Part shown: positions 11,337 through 52,612 of the stretch, piece by piece | How the letters are laid out: each line of letters opens with the position of its first letter | Position numbering within the stretch: the first letter of the stretch is position 1 | Assembly: GCF_019748365.1 (NCBI RefSeq) | Contig: NZ_JAIEPN010000004.1 | Coordinates: 49,138 to 113,137 of the forward strand | Direction: 5' to 3' | Origin: Novosphingobium sp. | GTDB taxonomy: Bacteria; Pseudomonadota; Alphaproteobacteria; Sphingomonadales; Sphingomonadaceae | Length of the DNA: 64,000 bases | Program-made: the position numbers and the translations under genes | The notes under the pieces: generated by a model | Seen by the model: only the letters and a program-made list of their open reading frames with translations | Databases searched by the model: none | Told to the model about the DNA's origin: nothing

Positions 11337-11412
11337 AGGAGTGTAGCTCAGTTGGTAGAGCATCGGTCTCCAAAACCGAGGGCCGGGGGTTCGAGTCCCT
11401 CCACTCCTGCCA
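11337..11412 (+). tRNA. tRNA-Trp (anticodon CCA)
   Basis: The cloverleaf can be drawn by hand. The acceptor AGGAGTG pairs with CACTCCT, the D-arm contains AGCTCAGTTGGTAGAGC, and the anticodon stem is CGGTCTCCAAAACCG with CCA. The T-arm contains GTTCGAGTC. Discriminator G and an encoded CCA end at 11412. It lies upstream of secE in the usual bacterial order, but is now separated from it by the prophage, whose attL core overlaps the 3' end. Confidence 0.97.
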
Positions 11413-11413
11413 C
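11397..11413. other. attL core (17-bp repeat in tRNA-Trp 3' end)
   Basis: CCCTCCACTCCTGCCAC is identical to bases 52596-52612. It covers the T-arm/acceptor 3' half of tRNA-Trp, so integration leaves the tRNA intact at this end. Confidence 0.92.
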
Positions 11414-11442: not shown

Positions 11443-11487
11443 GGTTAGGGCTGGGTTAGACAATCAGCGCTTTGGACAGTTAGCCAA
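11443..11487. other. Candidate integrase arm-type sites, attL side
   Basis: Three related words lie between the att core and the integrase stop region: GGTTAGGGCT (11443), GGTTAGACAA (11454-11463) and AGTTAGCCAA (11478-11487). GGTTAGACAA recurs exactly at 52501 and GTTAGCCAA at 52554 on the attR side. This is what arm-binding sites of a tyrosine integrase look like; the assignment is inference. Confidence 0.5.
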
Positions 11488-12561
11488 ATCGAAGGCGATC
11501 ACCGGGGTAATGGCCTGCTCGGCCATGCGCTTTTGCTCCACGGCGGCGGTGTAGGTTGCGACCTGGCGGTCGGTGGTCCAGCCTCCCACCGCCTTCAATT
11601 CCTGATTGCTCGCGCCCGCTTCGGCCGCCCGGCGCGTGATCGCCTTGCGCAGGCCGTGGGCGCTGCAGTGGGGCAGGCCGGCATCGTCGCACCATTTGCG
11701 CATGCGCTGGCCGAGCCCGGCGCGGGTGAAGGGTTTGCCATAATCCGTCACCAGAAAGGTCTCGGTCCCCGTCACCGGCATCGCCTCGATCGCTTCCATG
11801 AGCTGCGGCGCGGCGGGCAGCCAGATGGTCTGCCCGGTGCTGTCCTTCGTCTTCGCCGGCGTCACCTCGATCATGCCGTCCTTCAGGTGCTTGCGCCCGA
11901 AGGTAGAGGCATCGCCCCGGCGCAGCGCGGTCCACAGGAAGATTTCGAGCGCGAGGCGCGGCTTGGTGCCCAGCGGGTGGTGGGCGCGATACTGCGCGAT
12001 CTCTGCCTCGGTCCATGTGTGGAAGCCGCCCTTGGGCACCGCGATCGATTCGGCCTGATCGACCGGGTTGGGCCGCTGCAGGCCAAGCAGCTTGATCGCA
12101 TAGTCGAAGAACGGCTTCATCTCGCCGCGCAGGTTGGCGGCGGCGCTCGGCCCGCCGATCGTGCGGCCCTTGGCATCGGTGCGCTTGGTTGCCGCGCGCA
12201 GCAGCAGGGCCTCGATATGGTCGAACCGGAAGTTCACGATCAGATCGTGCTGCACCTCGGCCACGAACTTTTCGAGGATCAGCCGCGCCGTGCGCGCCGT
12301 CGCCTCGCTCTTCCCGCCGAGGAAAGCCGCCGATGTGTAGTAGCGCGCGGCCACCCAGCCCACCGTTCCATGAGCATAGCGCGGCGCAGGCTCGGCCTTC
12401 GTGTTCGCAGCAAAGGCTGCCAGCTCGGTCTGCCCCTCCGGCGAGTTCGGATGCGCCTTGAAATAGGCCGAGCGCCCGGCATGGCGCCAGCGATAGTGGC
12501 GCTTGCCATGGCGATCGACAAACGAGCTGACGTAGGGCGGGAGCTTTTCTTTACGAGCCAT
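11464..12561 (-). CDS. int: Phage tyrosine integrase
   Basis: ATG 12561 (44th codon of the tracked ORF) starts RKEKLPPYVSSFVDRHGKRHYRWR, a typical N-terminal arm-binding region. The catalytic domain shows Arg I (WTALRRGD), HxxR (SAHGLRKA), a Trp in place of the third His (VGGWTTDRQ) and the Tyr nucleophile (VATYTAAVEQKR). The length is 365 aa. It is transcribed toward attL and ends 51 bp from the att core. It overlaps the upstream 64-aa gene by 11 bp. Confidence 0.93.
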   Translation of the reverse strand: MARKEKLPPYVSSFVDRHGKRHYRWRHAGRSAYFKAHPNSPEGQTELAAFAANTKAEPAPRYAHGTVGWVAARYYTSAAFLGGKSEATARTARLILEKFVAEVQHDLIVNFRFDHIEALLLRAATKRTDAKGRTIGGPSAAANLRGEMKPFFDYAIKLLGLQRPNPVDQAESIAVPKGGFHTWTEAEIAQYRAHHPLGTKPRLALEIFLWTALRRGDASTFGRKHLKDGMIEVTPAKTKDSTGQTIWLPAAPQLMEAIEAMPVTGTETFLVTDYGKPFTRAGLGQRMRKWCDDAGLPHCSAHGLRKAITRRAAEAGASNQELKAVGGWTTDRQVATYTAAVEQKRMAEQAITPVIAFDLANCPKR

Positions 12562-12745
12562 TCGGAAGGAAACGATCGAGCGGGTTGGCGGCGCCCGGTG
12601 CGGGGCCGTCCGATTCGCCGATGATGATCTCGATCCGCTGATTCGCCAAATCCAAGACGATCCGAGCCCGCTGAAATCCGGCTTCGGCAACGGCCTTGCA
12701 GGCGCGCGCCGTCTCGGCCTGCGGGATCATGGCCGGTTTCGTCAT
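12551..12745 (-). CDS. Hypothetical phage protein (64 aa) overlapping int
   Basis: This 64-aa protein reads TKPAMIPQAETARACKAVAEAGFQ, then LDLANQRIEIIIGESD. It is coupled to int (11-bp overlap) and to the upstream 60-aa gene (4-bp overlap). The position suits an excisionase or int regulator, but no helix-turn-helix can be recognised, so the function is unknown. Confidence 0.65.
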   Translation of the reverse strand: MTKPAMIPQAETARACKAVAEAGFQRARIVLDLANQRIEIIIGESDGPAPGAANPLDRFLPNGS

Positions 12746-33773: not shown

Positions 33774-35201
33774 TCAGTTGCCGAGAGCGAAGATGGTGAC
33801 GGTGGAAGGTACGCCGCCGCCGTTGTTGCCATAGACGAAGCCGCCATCCTGATTGGCGCCGTTGAGATAGGCCGAATAGGAGCCGCTGAAGTTGAGGCCC
33901 TGCCGCCCGCCGGGCACCGCGCCCAGCAGCGCGTTGGGGAAGGGCTTGGGCCAGGTGAAGGCCGAGGCACCGCCGGCGGTGCAGGCAACGTTGCGCCACT
34001 GGAAGATGATGTCCGGTCCGAACAGGGCGTGCGCAAGCTGGATGTAGCCGCTGGCGCCAATGCTGGCCTCGGTGACGCGCAGGAACTGGCTGGCATGGAG
34101 GCCATCGAGCAGATCGGCATCAAGGCCCGATCCCGAACCATCGACGCCGAGCAGGCGGGCGAGGATCGCCGCGCCGGTGGTGAGGGCATCGACATAGCTT
34201 TTGCGAGCGGCGTGGCCGGTGGCGGTGGGATCGCCCGGCAGGGTGAGCGCGCCGGTCATCGTATCGCCCGCCCTGTTGACGGGGGTATAGCCGAGCCGGG
34301 CGGGGATGTTGGTGAAGAAGCTGCTGTCCTGCCCATCGAGCAGATCGGCATCGAGGCCGGAGCCCGCGCCATCGTTGCCGCCATGCCAGAGGGGCGCCTC
34401 GCTGCTGCCGATGCCGAGCAGCAGGCGGTTCAGGCTGCGATCGAAGGTGAGGTAATCGTTGGTATCGAAATTGATCGTCACGCGGGTGCCGGAACCGGCC
34501 GCCCAGAAGTTCGGCAGATTGAAGCCGAGCGTCCCGGTCATCGCGTCGCCCGCCTTGTTGAGCGGGGTATAGCCGAGGCGCGCGGGGATATTGGCGTACC
34601 ATGCGCCCTGCTGGCCATCGAGCAGATCGGCATCAAGGCCCGAACCGGCGCCATCGCGGGCGAGGAGGAGCGGCAGCAGCGCGGCGGCGAGCGCGGCGGG
34701 GGTGACGGCCCGCGCGGCATCGGCCCCGGCCTGCGCTTCGGCATTGGTCGCGATCTCGATCAGGCCCTTGCGGGCGGTGGTCGCGTCGGGATCGGTGAAG
34801 TTCGTCGCGCCGAATGCCAGCGATGCGGCGCTGATATCGGCGAAGACGCAATCGATGGCGATCAGCGCCGCGCTTTCCGCCGTCTTGATCAGGATCGGAT
34901 CGGCCTGCCCGTAGATCGCGAAGAGCGTGCCATCATCAAGGTAGAGCGCGAAGGACCGCAGCGAGTAGGCCGCGTTGCTATCGTCCAGCATGGAAACGTG
35001 GATGATGTCGTCCGCCGTGCTGGTGCCGCCCACGGTGGTGATGCGGCGCAGCTCGCCCGCGAGCGCGGTGAGGCCGGGGACCGGCGCGACGGCCGTGGCC
35101 GAAAGCCCCGCTTCGGTGATGGTGACCGCATCGGTGCCGGTCTGCTGGGCGTTGAGCAGCGCGGCGCGGCCAGCCTCGGTGATGATCAGGTTGAGCGACA
35201 T
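33774..35201 (-). CDS. Phage tail fibre protein (P2 gpH-like) with repeated LDADLLDG units
   Basis: This 475-aa protein has the N-terminal fibre domain of P2 relatives (SLNLIITEAGRAALLNAQQTGTDAVTITEAGLSATA, LRRITTVGGTSTADDIIHVSMLDDS). Three copies of GSGLDADLLDG follow, two of them with IPARLGYTP(L/V)N(K/R)AGD(A/T)MTG. A C-terminal tip of the gpH/Gp37 type ends IFALGN. The repeats form a fibrous shaft. Receptor binding is expected at the C-terminus. Confidence 0.9.
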   Translation of the reverse strand: MSLNLIITEAGRAALLNAQQTGTDAVTITEAGLSATAVAPVPGLTALAGELRRITTVGGTSTADDIIHVSMLDDSNAAYSLRSFALYLDDGTLFAIYGQADPILIKTAESAALIAIDCVFADISAASLAFGATNFTDPDATTARKGLIEIATNAEAQAGADAARAVTPAALAAALLPLLLARDGAGSGLDADLLDGQQGAWYANIPARLGYTPLNKAGDAMTGTLGFNLPNFWAAGSGTRVTINFDTNDYLTFDRSLNRLLLGIGSSEAPLWHGGNDGAGSGLDADLLDGQDSSFFTNIPARLGYTPVNRAGDTMTGALTLPGDPTATGHAARKSYVDALTTGAAILARLLGVDGSGSGLDADLLDGLHASQFLRVTEASIGASGYIQLAHALFGPDIIFQWRNVACTAGGASAFTWPKPFPNALLGAVPGGRQGLNFSGSYSAYLNGANQDGGFVYGNNGGGVPSTVTIFALGN

Positions 35202-35844: not shown

Positions 35845-36746
35845 TCAGGACGCCGTGCCGCCATCGGCGAGCGTGATGCCGGTGCAGATGGCCACCTGCA
35901 GCGCGGTGGGTTCGAGATCGGCGGCAGGCTCGGCCAGTTCGACGTTCTGGACGCCATTGGCGAAGAGCGCGGCGATCACCCCGGCGCGGGTGACCGAGCG
36001 GCCAAGGCGGCGCGAGACGGCGAGGTAATCGTCAAGCGCGGCCTGCGCAGCGGCGAGCACCACGGCCTTGTCCGGCCCGGCGCGATAGGTGATCGTCGCA
36101 TCGACCGTGAATTCCAGCAGCTCGGCCGCAGCAACGTTGACCAGATCGGTGAGCGGGGGACGGTGGAAGCATTGAGCGCGGCGGCAACGGTATCGAGCAG
36201 GCCTGCGGACGGGGTGCCATCGCCGCTGCGGGCCAGCACGGTGACGACAACCTCGCCCGGCGCGGGGCTGGTGGCGCTGGCATCGGCCACATCGCCCGAG
36301 GCATTGAGGGCGTGGAAGATGTAGGCGCCGGCCGGACCCGCCACCGAATAGCCTTCGGGCGCGAGCACCACGCGGCGGCGGAAATCATCATCGGATTCCA
36401 GCACGGCGGGGGTGCCGGCTTCGGGATCGGCGGGGGTGATGACGTATCGCTCGACCTGAAACAGCGCGCCCAGCGCATCGAGATCGGCGCCGCGCGCATA
36501 GGCGACCATGACCGCGCGGGCCGCGTCGTTCACCCGCTGGCGCAGGATCATCTCGCGGTAGGCGCCGACTTCGCAGAGCTTGACGATGGGATCGCTTTCC
36601 ACCGCCGCGTCGAAGGCGGGGAACTTGGCCTGAAAATCCGCGATCCACGCCGCGCGCAGGGTTTCGAAGTCCAGCGCCTCGATCACATCGGGTGCGGGCA
36701 GACGGCTGAGATCGACCCCGGTGAAACTGTCTGTGCTGCTTGCCAT
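35845..36746 (-). pseudogene. J: Baseplate wedge protein J (P2 gpJ), split by an apparent 1-nt frameshift
   Basis: The N-terminal part (ASSTDSFTGVDLSRLPAPDVIEALDFETLRAAWIADFQAKFPAFDAAVESDPIVKLCEVGAYREMILRQRVNDAARAV) is excellent gpJ for about 195 residues. The frame is then lost near a G5/C5 run at 36155-36159. Another frame continues the family sequence (PLTDLVNVAAAELLEF, then VLAAAQAALDDYLAVSRRLGRSVTRAGVIAALFANGVQNVEL) to a stop at 35845. One missing base explains both parts; together they give about 300 aa, the normal length. It is a real mutation or a sequencing error. Confidence 0.85.
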
Positions 36747-36896: not shown

Positions 36897-39230
36897 TTGC
36901 CAAAACCCGTCGAAAACCTGACCGGCGCGGATGCGACGGCCTTCCAGCAAGCGCTTACCCCGTTCGTGAGCGCGATCGTCGATAACGAGGACATCCCCGC
37001 AATCACTGCGGCGGTCGCGCAGGCCGAGGCGGCTGCTGCGAATGTGAACAACGGGGTAGCGGCAGCGGCAGACAGCGCCAACACGGCAAGCCTTGCCGCC
37101 TCGGCCATGCTCGGCATCAACCGCGTCTTCACCACCACCGCGCTCGGTATCGCAGGGACGACGAACGGGCAGGGCTTCGTGGTGATCCCGGCGACGGGCG
37201 CGACCTCGGCAATCCACTACTACAACCAGTCCGGCGTGGCGGCAGCCAGCGGGTTCCAGTTCGCGAGCGAGGCCACCCGCATCGCGTTCAACGTGATCAT
37301 CACCACGAGCGTCACGAACAGCGGCAACGCCTATTCGGCAACTGCGGCGGGGCTTGGCACGCTCGCGGCGGGCCAGCGCGTCAAGATCGTGCCCTCGGCC
37401 ACCAATACCGGCGTTGTGACCCTCGCGCTCAATGGCGGATCGGCGCGCACCGTGGCCGATGCCAAGGGGCAAGCCCTGCAGGCGGGCACGTTCGAGGCGG
37501 GGCAGGATTACGAGCTGGTTTACACCGGCACGCAGTGGCGGCTGCATTGGGCCATCCGGCAGCAATTCTTCGAAGTCACGGCGCGCAGCCGGCTGTTCCT
37601 CGGCACTGCCGGTCTCGTCTCGCTTTCGGCCAGTGCCAATGGCGAGCTGATCGTCACGAGTTCGCTGAACGGCGTTGCCACCGAACTCGCCCGTTTCGAC
37701 TTTGCGACGGGTTTCCTGCGTGTCGTCAACGGGCTGCGCATTGGCGCCACGGCGGGTTCTGGGGTCGATGTCTACTGGCGGAACAACCCGCAGCCGTTCA
37801 TCCCCGGATTGGCCAACTCGGACGCTCTTGGCGAGACGGCGGCGTTCACGCAGTCCATCGAGCGGCCCGATGACAGCGATCCGGTCATGATCGGCTCGAC
37901 CAAGCCATACTGCGTTACCGCATTCGATCTCGGCCGCACGATCATGGTGACGGCCGCCGGCGCGACGATTGACCTGCAGAAATGGACCGATGGGCAGTCG
38001 ATCAAGATTGCGACCAGCGCGGCCTGCACGCTCTATTCCGGGCCGGACAAGACCTGGTTCGGGCAAAGCTCGACCAACCGCAACATGGCGCTGCCGGCGA
38101 ACAGCATCGTCACGGTGACGCGGGTGGGAACCGTGCTGTTTTACGAGACGGCGGCCGGCATCACCTTCAACGCCGCTGCGCAGGCCGCGCGCGACATTTC
38201 CATCGCCGCGATCGGGCAGTCGCTCGCCGCCTATTTCATCGAGCACGCGGGGGTGGGCGGCTATCAGGCGCAGCAGGCGCTGCTCGCCGGATCGAGCGCA
38301 GCGTGGCCTGCTGCGGGATGGGACGCCTCCCGTTCCTCGATCTGGCCGATCAATGCGGCCCTCGGCGCTTCCGCGCTGCTCGAGGCGAACAATCCCTCGA
38401 ACTTCTGGTGGACGACTGCGGGCGGGCCGGGACCGCGCGCGACCGAGGCAGTGACCAAGATCAATGAGGCGGTGGCGCTGGGCCAGCCCATGCCCGCGCT
38501 GCTGCACTGGGTGCAGGGAGAGGGAGATCGCGCTGGCCTGGCGGCGGGCACAACCACCTTTACCCAGTATCGCAACGCGCAGGTCGCCCTCTTCAACTGG
38601 CTGCGGTCCCAGCTTTCGCGGCCCAATCTGCCGATCGTGATCTCGCCGCTCGGCGCGGACGATACCAACGCCATCGCGCGCGGTGCCTACATCGCCATCC
38701 GCGAGGCGCAGGTCTGGGTCTGCGGGCAGCTTTCGAACGTGAGCCTCGCGCCCGAGAAGTACGACTTGCCCCGCAAGTACACAGACGTCCACCTGACCTA
38801 CAAGGGGACCGGCATGATGGGCGCGCGGCTTGCGCTGGCAGCCGGGAACATCCTGAGCGGGCAGAACAACAACCTTGGCCCGGCGATCCAGAGCTTCGTC
38901 GGCGGTTCATTCACGCACACGATCACGTTCAGCGGAACCGCGCAGCCGGATCGCCCCGGCGCCAGCACGAACCCCGGCCAGCCCCCCGTTGGCTTCGTTC
39001 TGCGCTCTCCGGGCGATCCGGTAACGGCGACCTACTACACGATCCCGAGCTACGGCTATGCATGGTCGACCAATGGCAACGGCAACCCCGTTCTGACGCT
39101 GACCACGCTTGAGGACGCAACCGGGTGCGTCCTCGCCTACCCCGGCACCTCGCTTCAGGACGTCCGCACCCGCCGCATCGTGCGCGGGCTCTTTTCGCCG
39201 TTCCTGCCGCTTCGCACGTGGGGAGGGTAA
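36897..39230 (+). CDS. Tail fibre/receptor-binding protein with SGNH (sialate-O-acetylesterase-like) domain
   Basis: Start TTG 36897 has AGGAG 6 bp upstream; the tracked start at 36312 is antisense to J. The 777-aa protein begins with an oligomerising helical region, then beta-rich fibre. The catalytic region starts AIGQSLAAYF (block I Ser) and has HWVQGEGD (the QGE oxyanion motif) and DVHLTYKGTGMMGARLA (Asp/His). This is the SASA/CE6-type SGNH esterase pattern. It probably removes O-acetyl groups from cell-surface polysaccharide during adsorption. It is co-transcribed with the endolysin. Confidence 0.75.
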   Translation: MPKPVENLTGADATAFQQALTPFVSAIVDNEDIPAITAAVAQAEAAAANVNNGVAAAADSANTASLAASAMLGINRVFTTTALGIAGTTNGQGFVVIPATGATSAIHYYNQSGVAAASGFQFASEATRIAFNVIITTSVTNSGNAYSATAAGLGTLAAGQRVKIVPSATNTGVVTLALNGGSARTVADAKGQALQAGTFEAGQDYELVYTGTQWRLHWAIRQQFFEVTARSRLFLGTAGLVSLSASANGELIVTSSLNGVATELARFDFATGFLRVVNGLRIGATAGSGVDVYWRNNPQPFIPGLANSDALGETAAFTQSIERPDDSDPVMIGSTKPYCVTAFDLGRTIMVTAAGATIDLQKWTDGQSIKIATSAACTLYSGPDKTWFGQSSTNRNMALPANSIVTVTRVGTVLFYETAAGITFNAAAQAARDISIAAIGQSLAAYFIEHAGVGGYQAQQALLAGSSAAWPAAGWDASRSSIWPINAALGASALLEANNPSNFWWTTAGGPGPRATEAVTKINEAVALGQPMPALLHWVQGEGDRAGLAAGTTTFTQYRNAQVALFNWLRSQLSRPNLPIVISPLGADDTNAIARGAYIAIREAQVWVCGQLSNVSLAPEKYDLPRKYTDVHLTYKGTGMMGARLALAAGNILSGQNNNLGPAIQSFVGGSFTHTITFSGTAQPDRPGASTNPGQPPVGFVLRSPGDPVTATYYTIPSYGYAWSTNGNGNPVLTLTTLEDATGCVLAYPGTSLQDVRTRRIVRGLFSPFLPLRTWGG

Positions 39231-39235
39231 GCGCC

Positions 39236-39724
39236 ATGGCACCCGAACCACGCTGGCTCACCATCGCGCGCGGCCATATCGGCGTGCGCGAGATTCCGGG
39301 GCCGCGCCATAGCCCGACCATCATGGGCTGGCTGCGCAGGCTCGGCTCGTGGATCAAGGATGACGAGGCAGCCTGGTGCGGCACGTTCGTGGCCGCCGTG
39401 ATGCAGGAAGCGGGGCTGCCAGTGCCGAAGTATCACATGCGCGCGCGGGCATGGGCGGACTGGGGCGCGAACCTGCGCGAGAGCGTGGTGGCGCCGGGCG
39501 CGGTGCTGGTCTTCGCGCGCGAGGGCGGCGGGCACGTGGGCTTTTACGTGGGCGAGGATCCCGCAGCCTATCATGTGCTGGGCGGCAATCAGGGCAATGC
39601 CGTTTCCATCGTGCGGATCTCCAAGGCGCGCTGCATCGCCATCCGCTGGCCGCGCGGCGAGCCGGTGCTGGGGCGCCCGGTGCTGCTGGCGGCGAGCGGC
39701 GAAACTTCGAAAAACGAGGCGTGA
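39236..39724 (+). CDS. Phage endolysin, TIGR02594-type (NlpC/P60/CHAP-like cysteine peptidase)
   Basis: ATG 39236 gives 162 aa: PRWLTIARGHIGVREIPGPRHSPTIMGWLRRLG, then the nucleophile in AWCGTFVAAVMQEAGLP, His in GGHVGFYVGE and Asn in GGNQGN. These are the Cys-His-Asn triad and order of the TIGR02594 cell-wall hydrolases. It lies 5 bp behind the esterase fibre gene, displaced from the lysis cluster (holin-like genes are at 43 kb). Confidence 0.85.
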   Translation: MAPEPRWLTIARGHIGVREIPGPRHSPTIMGWLRRLGSWIKDDEAAWCGTFVAAVMQEAGLPVPKYHMRARAWADWGANLRESVVAPGAVLVFAREGGGHVGFYVGEDPAAYHVLGGNQGNAVSIVRISKARCIAIRWPRGEPVLGRPVLLAASGETSKNEA

Positions 39725-39736
39725 AAAGGACTTCGC

Positions 39737-41356
39737 ATGACTGAGGCTGTAAAGCTCAATGAAGGCACCGGCGGCGCGAGCATCGTCGTCGACGAATTGG
39801 AAACGCTCAACGGCGAGCCTGTTCCTTCCGAGACGACGCCGCCTACCGGTCCGGTTGTCCAGCGCATGAAGGTCGGCTTCGGCCCGGATGGCGCGCTGAG
39901 AGACGTGGATGCCGACAACCCGCTGCCGATTGCGGGCGCTGTCACCATCTCGGGCGTGGCGACGGCAAGTAAGCAGGACACGGGCAACTCCATCCTCGAC
40001 GCGATCCTGGCCGCGCTGCAGAGCACCCTGGGCATCGGCGGTGCCGTCACGGTCTCCAATCTTCCAGCGACACAGCCGGTGAGCGGGCCCTTGACCAATG
40101 CAGAGCTTCGCGCCTCTGCCGTGCCGGTTTCGGGAACGGTCGACGTTTCAGGCTCGGTCGCTGTCACCGGCACTTTCTGGCAAGCCACCCAGCCAATCAG
40201 CGCAGCAAGCCTTCCTTTGCCCACGGGCGCAGCGACAGCCGCATTGCAGACCACGGGCAACGCCACGCTGACAAGCATCCTGACGGCTCTCGGCTCTCCG
40301 CTGCAGGCAGGCGGATCGGTAAGCATCGCGGGTACGGTGGATGTCTCGGCCGCAAGCCTGCCCCTGCCCACCGGTGCGGCCACGGCGGCCAATCAGACGA
40401 CCGGCAACACCTCGCTCGCCAACCTCGATACGGACGTGGGCGCGATCGACGCCACTCCCGCTGCGGCGGACGGCACCGGCAATTACAGCCTCGTGGCGGC
40501 GGCCAAGCGCGCGCTGCTCAACTGGGCCAACCTGCTTGCGATCCTGCCATCCTCGCTTGGCCAGAAGACGATGGCGGGCAGCTTGTCGGTTGCGCTGGCG
40601 AGCGATCAGTCTGTCGTTCCCGTCGCGCTGCCCAACATGACGCCGTTCACTTACAACGGTTCAGGCCCCATCCCGATCAATACCGACTTGATCGTGGTCG
40701 ATTGCCGAGGTTTTGCGGCGGTGTCGATCCACTGTGTTTCCATGGGCACAAGCGGCGTCGCCACCTTCGCGTGGTCGAATGACGCCACGAACTATTCAAG
40801 TGGCAACGTAATCGCTTCGAGCGGCAATCCCGCTGGTTCAATCAATGCCGCAGGTTTGTTCAACACGCCGGTTTTTGCCCGCTACCTTCGGGTCCGGCTC
40901 ACCACCGCAACAACCGGCGGGACCACGACGTTTGCGGTCCATGGGATGGTGCAGCCGGGCAACCTGCCAACCATTAACCAGCAAGTCTTGCTTACGTCAG
41001 GCAGCTTCACCTTTGGCAACCTTGTCCGCGTCAACGGCTTCACCGACAGCAGCACACCACTCAGCAGCGCGGGCGTTTTCACCGGCACAGGCCGCGTCAC
41101 GACCAACGCTAACTATCCATGGTTTTGCGCAAGGGCTTTTGCCGATCAGGCGGGCACGCTGTTTATCGAATGTTCGGTGGACAGCGGCACCACGTATCGC
41201 GTTGCAGACAGCATTGCCTTGGCAGCCGGCGAAACCAAGAGCCTTGCCGTTCGAGCAACCGGCGCTGCGGGCACGGCCACGCTCTACCGCGTGCGCTATG
41301 TCAACGGCGGCAGCGCGCAGGGCGCGTTCCAGCTCAGTTCCATGTTCCACGCGTGA
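39737..41356 (+). CDS. Phage structural/adhesin-like protein with LPLPTGAAT repeats
   Basis: This 539-aa protein is rich in Thr, Ser, Gly and Ala. It carries two near-identical blocks (AASLPLPTGAATAALQTTGN and AASLPLPTGAATAANQTTGN), several VSGTVDVSGSV-type beta repeats and a beta-rich C-terminal half (TFAWSNDATNYSSGNVIAS, YLRVRLTTATTGGTTTFAVHG). This is the composition of a virion decoration, tail needle or adhesin protein. It is not a gene of canonical P2. Confidence 0.7.
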   Translation: MTEAVKLNEGTGGASIVVDELETLNGEPVPSETTPPTGPVVQRMKVGFGPDGALRDVDADNPLPIAGAVTISGVATASKQDTGNSILDAILAALQSTLGIGGAVTVSNLPATQPVSGPLTNAELRASAVPVSGTVDVSGSVAVTGTFWQATQPISAASLPLPTGAATAALQTTGNATLTSILTALGSPLQAGGSVSIAGTVDVSAASLPLPTGAATAANQTTGNTSLANLDTDVGAIDATPAAADGTGNYSLVAAAKRALLNWANLLAILPSSLGQKTMAGSLSVALASDQSVVPVALPNMTPFTYNGSGPIPINTDLIVVDCRGFAAVSIHCVSMGTSGVATFAWSNDATNYSSGNVIASSGNPAGSINAAGLFNTPVFARYLRVRLTTATTGGTTTFAVHGMVQPGNLPTINQQVLLTSGSFTFGNLVRVNGFTDSSTPLSSAGVFTGTGRVTTNANYPWFCARAFADQAGTLFIECSVDSGTTYRVADSIALAAGETKSLAVRATGAAGTATLYRVRYVNGGSAQGAFQLSSMFHA

Positions 41357-41723: not shown

Positions 41724-41996
41724 ATGAGCATCACATTGCAGAACATGCTCCCGGGTGCAGATATCCGCTATTCGCTGGACATGACGCCGATGCTGCCGGA
41801 GGGCGCAACCTTGACAGCAGCGGCGATCACGATGCGGCTTGGCGAAGATCGCGCGAGGGTGACGGCGAGCGTCCAGGGCACGAAAGCGATCGTGCGCGTG
41901 GAAGCTCGCGAGCTCGGTCCGGTGTCGTTCGATGTGATCGGCGTATTCAGCGACGGCCAGAAGGATGGCGAAACGATCCGCGTCCAGATCGTTTGA
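41724..41996 (+). CDS. Hypothetical small beta-sandwich-like phage protein (90 aa)
   Basis: This 90-aa protein (SITLQNMLPGADIRYSLDMTPMLPEGATLTAAAITMRLGEDRARVTASVQGTKAIVRVEARELGPVSFDVIGVFSDG) has the alternating strand pattern of an immunoglobulin-like fold. It is last in the plus-strand late module and converges on gene S 13 bp away. The function is unknown. Confidence 0.65.
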   Translation: MSITLQNMLPGADIRYSLDMTPMLPEGATLTAAAITMRLGEDRARVTASVQGTKAIVRVEARELGPVSFDVIGVFSDGQKDGETIRVQIV

Positions 41997-49318: not shown

Positions 49319-50336
49319 GACCCTTCCGGCCCCTTCGGGCGTTTCCGCGTTTGCCTTTGGCGATGCGGTGAGCGTGCTCGATCGGCGCGAGCTGTTCGAC
49401 ATGTTCGAGGTGGCGCACAACGGGCGCTGGTATGAGCCGCCGATCAATCCGGCAGGCCTCGGCCGGGCCTATCGCATGGCGCCGCACCACCAGAGCCCGA
49501 TCCTGCTGAAGCGGAACATGCTGGTGGCTTCGTTCGTGCCGAGCCGCTGGCTGAGCAAGGCCGATTTTTCGCGCTGGGCGCTGGACTGGATCATCTTCGG
49601 CAACGCCTATCTGGAAAGCGTGCCCAACCTGGCCGGACGCCCCGCGATGCTGCGGCCTTCACCGGCGGCATGGACGCGCGTGGGCGTGAAGCCGGACACC
49701 TTCTGGTTTGCCCCGCGCACCTATAATTCGGCGGACGCGACACAGTTTGCACCCGGCACCGTGCACCACATGGCCGAGCCCGATCCGATGCAGGAAATCT
49801 ATGGCATGCCCGAATATCTGAGCGCGCTGCAGAGCGGCCTGCTCAACGAGAGCGCCACCCTGTTTCGCCGCAAGTTCTACATCAACGGCAGCCATGCCGG
49901 GTACATCCTCTATGTGGGCGAGGAGAGCTTTTCCGAGAAGGACAGCGAGGCGCTGCGCAAGGCCATGCGCGAATCGAAGGGTCCGGGGAATTTCCGCAAC
50001 TTCTTCCTGCACATCCCCAAGGGCAAGCCGGAGGGGGTGAAGATCCTGCCGATCGGCGAGGTGGGTGCGAAGGACAACTTCCTCGATATCAAGAACGTGA
50101 CGGCGGAGGATATGCTGGCCGCGCACCGCACGCCGCCGCAGCTTTGCGGCATCGTGCCCAAGAACACCGGCGGCTTTGGCAACGTGGTGGATGCCGCGCG
50201 CACGTTCTACCATCTCGAAATCGTGCCCATTCAAGACCGCATGCTGGAAGTGAACGACTGGCTGGGGCTCCCCGCGATCGCCTTTCAGGAGCCGGATTTT
50301 GCGAGGCTGGTGGCGGCGCCGGCGTCGAACCCCTGA
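49305..50336 (+). CDS. Q: Portal protein Q (P2 gpQ, PBSX-type)
   Basis: ATG 49305 gives 343 aa: FEVAHNGRWYEPPINPAGLGRAYRMAPHHQSPILLKRNMLVASFVPSRWLSKADFSRWALDWIIFGNAYLE and HIPKGKPEGVKILPIGEVGAKDNFLDIKNVTAEDMLAAHRTPPQLCGIVP, the portal signature of P2 and PBSX. It is the last head gene on plus. Confidence 0.95.
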   Translation: MANPETLPAPSGVSAFAFGDAVSVLDRRELFDMFEVAHNGRWYEPPINPAGLGRAYRMAPHHQSPILLKRNMLVASFVPSRWLSKADFSRWALDWIIFGNAYLESVPNLAGRPAMLRPSPAAWTRVGVKPDTFWFAPRTYNSADATQFAPGTVHHMAEPDPMQEIYGMPEYLSALQSGLLNESATLFRRKFYINGSHAGYILYVGEESFSEKDSEALRKAMRESKGPGNFRNFFLHIPKGKPEGVKILPIGEVGAKDNFLDIKNVTAEDMLAAHRTPPQLCGIVPKNTGGFGNVVDAARTFYHLEIVPIQDRMLEVNDWLGLPAIAFQEPDFARLVAAPASNP

Positions 50337-50494
50337 TTTCACGAGTTCCCCCGTGAAAGCGGGGGCCAGGCTGTTAGCGCAGCCCAAGCCGGCGGACTGG
50401 ACTCCGCCACGAACCGATCGAGCTCGAATCGATCCGTCCCGCTCCCCGGCCGGGGATGGAACGGATGCGGAACAAATGAAGCGGAGTCCAGTCC
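50337..50494. other. Palindrome-rich intergenic segment between portal and Dam methylase
   Basis: TTTCACG/CGTGAAA (50337-50343, 50352-50358) and CCCCCG/CGGGGG (50348-50353, 50360-50365) are mutually exclusive hairpins just after the portal stop. A 14-bp perfect inverted repeat, GGACTGGACTCCGC (50394-50407) with its complement (50481-50494), follows, with a CCCCGGCCGGGG palindrome inside it. The right arm contains the GGAG used as ribosome-binding site of the methylase. Confidence 0.7.
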
Positions 50495-50496
50495 CC

Positions 50497-51315
50497 ATGA
50501 TGATCGAAAATGATGCAATCGAAGCCCTGCAGCCGGTGGCGCCGGTGCGGCCGCTGGCGCCCTACATCGGCGGCAAGCGCAACCTCGCCAAGCGGGTGGT
50601 GGCCCGCATCAACGCCTTGCCGCACGAGACTTATGCCGAGCCCTTTGTGGGCATGGGCGGGGTTTTCTTCCGGCGCGACCGGCGCCCGGCGGGGGAAGTG
50701 ATCAACGACTGGTCGGAGGACGTTTCGACGTTCTTCCGGGTGGTGCAGCGGCATTACGTGCCGTTCATGGAAATGCTGCGCTGGCAGATCACGAGCCGCG
50801 CGGGGTTCGAGAAGCTGCTGCGGCAGGATCCGGCAAGCCTCACCGATCTGGAGCGATCGGCGCGGTTCCTTTACCTGCAGAAGCTGGCCTTCGGCGGGAG
50901 GGTGCGGGGGCGGACGTTCGGCGTGGTGCATGGCGCGCCTGCGCGGTTCGATGTGACCAAGGTGGGGCCGATGATCGAGGCGGCGCACGAGCGGCTTGCC
51001 GGCGTGATCATCGAGCGGCTGCCGTGGGCCGAGTTCATCGCGCGCTATGATCGGCCGGGCACGCTGTTCTACCTCGATCCGCCCTACTACGGGTGCGAGC
51101 GCGACTATGGCGAAGGGATGTTCACCCGCGAGGAGTTCGCCGCCATGGCGGAGCTGCTGCGGGGCGTGAAGGGGCGCTTCCTGCTCTCGCTCAATGACCA
51201 CCCGGATGTGCGCGAGATCTTCGCGGGGTTCCGCTTCGAGGAAGAGGCGGTGCGCTACACGCTGGCGGGAATGGCGAACAGCAAGGTGGTAGGCGAGGTG
51301 ATCATCTCGAACTAG
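50497..51315 (+). CDS. DNA adenine methyltransferase, D12/Dam class
   Basis: Start ATG 50497 follows GGAG at 50483-50486; the tracked start lies upstream in the palindrome region. The 272-aa protein has APYIGGKRNLAKRV, AEPFVGMGGVFF (AdoMet motif), a target-recognition region (FLYLQKLAFGGRVRGRTFGV) and DPPYYGCERDYGE. This order is alpha-class Dam. It is likely a phage self-methylase protecting DNA. It is the second methylase of the prophage, and of a different class from the one at 13 kb. Confidence 0.9.
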   Translation: MMIENDAIEALQPVAPVRPLAPYIGGKRNLAKRVVARINALPHETYAEPFVGMGGVFFRRDRRPAGEVINDWSEDVSTFFRVVQRHYVPFMEMLRWQITSRAGFEKLLRQDPASLTDLERSARFLYLQKLAFGGRVRGRTFGVVHGAPARFDVTKVGPMIEAAHERLAGVIIERLPWAEFIARYDRPGTLFYLDPPYYGCERDYGEGMFTREEFAAMAELLRGVKGRFLLSLNDHPDVREIFAGFRFEEEAVRYTLAGMANSKVVGEVIISN

Positions 51316-52595: not shown

Positions 52596-52612
52596 CCCTC
52601 CACTCCTGCCAC
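52596..52612. other. attR core (17-bp repeat)
   Basis: CCCTCCACTCCTGCCAC identical to 11397-11413. Sequence on either side differs, so the repeat is exactly 17 bp. It marks the right end of the prophage. The residual tRNA-Trp fragment here has no acceptor 5' half. Confidence 0.92.

Follow-up and report, generated by a model that had tools for sequence, protein, structure and literature searches.

The gene at positions 36897 to 39230 on the plus strand of a 64,000-nucleotide stretch of a Novosphingobium sp. contig (hereafter the window) encodes a tail fibre or receptor-binding protein of 777 residues with a fused SGNH (SASA) esterase domain, translated from a TTG start. The protein is probably the receptor-binding fibre of a P2-like prophage, with a CE6/CE20-type SGNH domain that de-acetylates an O-acetylated surface polysaccharide. 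Homology, gene neighbourhood and published precedent all point to the de-acetylation of such a glycan as its likely role.

The reading frame is open throughout, an AGGAG sequence lies upstream of the TTG start, and a TTG occurs at the equivalent point in a syntenic prophage from a genome of the same genus (L055). Third codon positions have a GC of 0.84 in the sense direction, like those of the neighbouring phage genes, and the long antisense ORF of the fibre gene lacks this codon-position pattern. The gene proposed in an earlier note on this DNA is therefore real and open, with a start codon matched in the syntenic prophage. Full-length homologues of the fibre were absent from INPHARED, IMG/VR and a first GTDB scan, and among 401 genomes of the family the sole full-length match was the window itself. 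Loci L006-L010 were left out of the comparisons because of in-frame stops.

The protein would comprise a putative N-terminal anchor, a beta-rich shaft, an SGNH esterase domain (CE6/CE20, Pfam SASA) and a C-terminal beta-sandwich. The presumed virion anchor corresponds to residues 1-38 (36897-37010), which share 53% identity with the N-terminus of the protein occupying the same slot in L055. A fibre beta-domain (residues 144-216, 37326-37544) is 53% identical to a domain of a protein in L003, from another member of the family, that is assigned to tail fibres by PHROG and Pfam. The Pfam SASA match (PF03629, E=8e-8, 32.6 bits vs a curated cut-off of 24.8) covers residues 517-648 (38445-38840), within a whole SGNH domain that AlphaFold2 (AF2) models and Foldseek place at about residues 432-658, and the PHROG tail-fibre family phrog_4201 weakly matches the same stretch (4.6e-5). 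The C-terminal beta-sandwich (about residues 665-777, 38889-39227), also seen in the AF2 model, is common in alignment to L013, L040 and L042. All of these segments are read on the plus strand.

Four sequence blocks, also on the plus strand, carry the predicted active site: block I, GQS (residues 440-442, 38214-38222), with Ser442 as the predicted nucleophile; block II, ALGAS (38358-38372), with Gly490 as the predicted oxyanion residue; block III, WVQGEGD (residues 538-544, 38508-38528), in which Gln540 replaces the Asn of SGNH enzymes, as in CE6/CE20; and block V, TDVHL (residues 629-633, 38781-38795), in which His632 is preceded by Asp630 at -2 (DxH spacing). Ser442, Gly490, Gln540 and His632 occur in SASA block order and align with the relatives. 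The fibre contains three GQS triplets (residues 366, 389 and 440), and only Ser442 aligns with a catalytic serine. None of 200,000 shuffles contained the ordered motif set, and across the whole window no second stop-to-stop ORF with 150 or more residues did either. The aligned residues, a SASA match above the Pfam cut-off and the shuffles bear out the earlier reading of GQS, WVQGEGD and DVH as a series in SASA-type order.

Structure prediction is consistent with this assignment. The AF2 model of residues 422-777 reached a pLDDT of 60 and a pTM of 0.61, and that of the SGNH domain alone a pLDDT of 67 and a pTM of 0.70; in both, an alternating beta-alpha SGNH topology was obtained, with confidence moderate overall and low in the loops flanking the active site, and in both block I ends strand 1, block III follows strand 3 and block V precedes the last helix. 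In Foldseek searches, the best PDB matches of the longer model were the CE20 enzyme XAC1771 (6.5e-9), CE20 II, SIAE and At4g34215 (CE6), and among its viral matches were the PP99 tail spike, the adhesion protein of ViI and numerous SGNH proteins of phages. The SGNH-only model matched At4g34215 and the phage N4 tail (9yf5), among others; the matches to CE20/CE6 had a Foldseek probability of 1.00. A PDB profile search returned 1zmb, 2apj, 9ega and 9h4u. The fibre domain is thus predicted, with moderate confidence, to adopt the SGNH alpha/beta fold.

The catalytic set carries a caveat because block V reads DxH rather than DxxH. Asp630 lies at -2 from His632 (D-V-H) and Thr629 occupies -3, so the classical DxxH spacing of the SGNH triad is absent; the set proposed in the earlier note accordingly stands for Ser442, Gly490, Gln540 and His632 and departs from the canonical pattern in the position of the block V Asp. 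Asp is found at -3 in 11 relatives (L005, L013, L014, L015, L016, L017, L020, L021, L022, L030 and L040), and position -2 is occupied by Asn in the viral contig L042 and by Asp in the SIAE-like L027. In CE20 enzymes, block V is DxH, sometimes with Asn, a water molecule bridges the Asp or Asn and the His, and SIAE has been described as a Ser-His dyad (PMC12313940). On this basis, the window protein, which shares the spacing with CE20 and SIAE, may either act in a CE20-like manner, through a triad mediated by water, or be impaired, and the Asp at -2 may alter the charge relay. DxH in block V and Gln in block III are both CE20-like motifs, and these two motifs and the ranking of fold matches lead us to infer a CE20-type site, with no insertion of the size of an ancillary beta-sandwich seen within the SGNH domain in the alignment.

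The same displacement of Asp630 from the canonical DxxH position feeds the main alternative, namely that the domain keeps the SGNH fold but has little or no catalytic activity, its sole function in the fibre being to bind glycans. Dead versions do exist among related fibres, since the coliphage relatives alia and KMB37 have lost the nucleophile (GQD), one of them being annotated as an esterase all the same. We nevertheless consider this explanation unlikely, as Ser442, Gly490, Gln540 and His632 are all retained, as a bridging water lets CE20 enzymes function with DxH, and as SIAE is reported to work as a Ser-His dyad (PMC12313940). The GQD fibres in question, from Justusliebigvirus coliphages, are related to this domain and lie at 2427-5246 of L061 and 1927-4746 of L062; the annotation concerned is that of a tail carbohydrate esterase.

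Relatives of the SGNH domain at about 26-29% identity were found in L005, L013, L040 and L042, the last being a viral contig with an integrase. Two non-phage relatives sit in polysaccharide biosynthesis or O-acetylation clusters: L005 adjoins Alg14-like, glycosyltransferase-28 and hexapeptide-transferase genes, and L013 is flanked by a gene read as an AlgI-like MBOAT gene and by one for an ALGX acetyltransferase (E=1.5e-57). This cluster (L013/L033) is of the alginate type and comes from an alphaproteobacterial MAG: at 6730-13540 of L033, a SASA protein is encoded among outer-membrane porin-like, ALGX and AlgI-like genes. At a greater distance, SGNH fibres of the phrog_4201 type were found in several genomes of the order (16 of 301, a tally that includes cellular-looking proteins). 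It would be very surprising if the virion-borne domain acted on a target other than O-acetylated polysaccharide, for instance acylated peptidoglycan or lipid: the SGNH superfamily covers a broad chemistry and the neighbouring CHAP enzyme acts on peptidoglycan, but the nearest profiles and folds are those of carbohydrate O-acetylesterases and the relatives are located in glycan O-acetylation clusters.

The prophage itself spans about 41 kb (41.2 kb; 11397-52612) and is bounded on both sides by a 17-nt repeat of a tRNA-Trp 3' end (11397-11413 and 52596-52612), the two copies of which are likely attL and attR. An integrase gene lies inside it (11464-12690, minus strand), and the window holds a P2-like gene set coding for capsid N, scaffold O, tail completion S, sheath, V, I and J, with the terminase and portal genes on the plus strand. 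A D12-class adenine DNA methyltransferase gene (50299-51315, plus strand) adjoins the portal gene within the prophage. The capsid is 72% identical to that of the P2-like Microcystis phage Mae-JY29 (L057, PP438421.1), which might in reality infect an alphaproteobacterium associated with Microcystis. Plasmid matches were short and mixed.

Downstream of the fibre gene, a co-oriented gene that begins 5 nt past its stop codon (39236-39724, plus strand) encodes a CHAP / NlpC-like peptidoglycan hydrolase of 162 residues, of the endolysin or tail-lysozyme type. A 539-residue protein of no confident family, presumably tail-associated, is encoded next on the same strand (39737-41356), and a 90-residue ORF at the end of the fibre module (41724-41996, plus strand) weakly matches the fibre-tail adaptor Gp77, below the cut-off. 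Searches found no strong inverted-repeat pair bounding the module as in an invertible fibre cassette, and a promoter and terminator scan gave nothing above chance. Divergent from the fibre gene, the baseplate J gene (35976-36746, minus strand) is frameshifted in its C-terminal third, in a CCCCC run near 36160. Since the relative in L055 keeps an intact 311-residue frame, either the draft sequence contains an error at this point, or the J copy has decayed and the prophage would be defective and unable to assemble.

The structural-gene neighbourhood and the shared fibre domains mark the product as a probable phage receptor-binding fibre, and Pfam, PHROG and neighbourhood together support the earlier description of a fibre-type protein with a fused SASA/SGNH esterase domain, encoded beside a CHAP gene in a phage. 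The structural genes checked are 66-92% identical between this prophage and that of L055 and their order is kept, whereas what the two share at the fibre slot is limited to the first 38 residues (53%) and the CHAP gene (77%). The L055 fibre has another SGNH protein as its body, with a Lipase_GDSL_2 match (E=2e-6) that falls slightly short of the cut-off. An anchor that is kept while the body changes is what one would expect if a receptor-binding protein had exchanged its specificity module, and both bodies are SGNH esterase-like. The same pattern bears on the proposal that the prophage carries an active esterase that works outside the virion, as cargo that would trim polysaccharide of the host or of its surroundings. 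Such an enzyme would fit the chromosomal polysaccharide loci of the non-phage relatives, the position of the module on the strand opposite the J-I-H tail operon and the presence of a separate tail-fibre H gene (33774-35201). It is nonetheless improbable in view of the conserved N-terminus and swapped body, of the domain shared with a tail-fibre protein and the PHROG tail-fibre match, and of the N-terminus of the fibre, where no secretion signal is evident by eye. A location on the virion is what gene order suggests for the fibre.

A broader scenario, which we put forward tentatively and hold to be rather doubtful, is that some phage fibres adopted a CE20-like site (DxH, or NxH in L042), water-mediated or working as a dyad, instead of a DxxH triad, and that temperate P2-like phages of this genus swap SGNH esterase classes behind one conserved anchor, following changes in host polysaccharide O-acetylation.

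For the preferred reading, that of a de-acetylating receptor-binding fibre, phage G7C and its gp63.1 provide the analogy for a proposed course of events. The fibre would dock on an O-acetylated surface polysaccharide and remove acetyl groups, leaving the polysaccharide chain uncut; de-acetylation would allow the virion to track along the cell or to settle there, after which the CHAP enzyme and the contractile tail would act. We infer catalysis, acetyl specificity and the identity of the glycan, for which a sphingan would be speculation and the earlier note's naming of sphingan or LPS is a guess. With five Acyl_transf_3 genes in the host, O-acetylated host glycans are possible; this is compatible but unspecific, such genes being also common in controls (10 of 14 genomes).

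De-acetylating SGNH fibres are already established elsewhere, and the window fibre would therefore be a divergent example of a known strategy. The SGNH fibre gp63.1 of phage G7C de-acetylates O-antigen without chain cleavage (PMC10743462, PMC13123978), gp66 of phage Possum de-acetylates a surface glycan with NMR evidence (PMC9569702), a de-acetylating SGNH fibre is likewise reported for PP99 (PMC6989608), and the SGNH fibres 164_08 and 174_38 of Klebsiella pneumoniae prophages have esterase activity on pNPA (PMC13123978). Polysaccharide de-acetylation by fibres has so far been demonstrated mainly in phages of enterobacteria, and the window fibre would add a P2-like prophage from an environmental alphaproteobacterium. 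The near-isogenic prophage pair, with two SGNH bodies on one anchor, would be useful for testing host-range determinants, and the DxH block V offers a cheap test for CE20-type catalysis on virions.

As is described for the esterase tailspike gp63.1 of Escherichia phage G7C, an SGNH domain is fused into a receptor-binding protein; G7C is an N4-like podophage, whereas the window holds a prophage with a P2-like contractile tail. The Klebsiella fibres 164_08 and 174_38 also belong to temperate phages and bear the SGNH domain near the C-terminus, but come from other hosts (PMC13123978). Four PDB structures matched the SGNH-only model at E <= 0.001, and the N4 tail (9YF5 chain LA; E=5.6e-4, TMq 0.59) was the single one from a phage; it differs in being a podophage chain of 1181 residues with 17% identity. 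The phrog_4201 tail-fibre proteins (L014, L015 and L016) share the GQS...QGE arrangement and a C-terminal beta-sandwich on fibre shafts, but their block V is spaced DxxH and the profile match is the weak one given above. Among cellular enzymes, the CE6-like At4g34215 (2APJ) and 1ZMB share a W.QGE.D block and a REAQ motif with the window domain, match by profile and provide the best single-sequence PDB match (E=0.017); 2APJ differs by its DxxH block V and by having no fibre parts. The CE20 enzymes (XAC1771/XacXaeA, Fl8CE20_II, PpCE20_II and SIAE), the best PDB fold matches for the window domain, resemble it in the Gln of block III, the DxH of block V and the succession of an SGNH domain and a C-terminal beta domain, and are set apart from this phage-borne protein by an identity of 15-23% and by the ancillary-domain insertion, which is not seen in the window domain.
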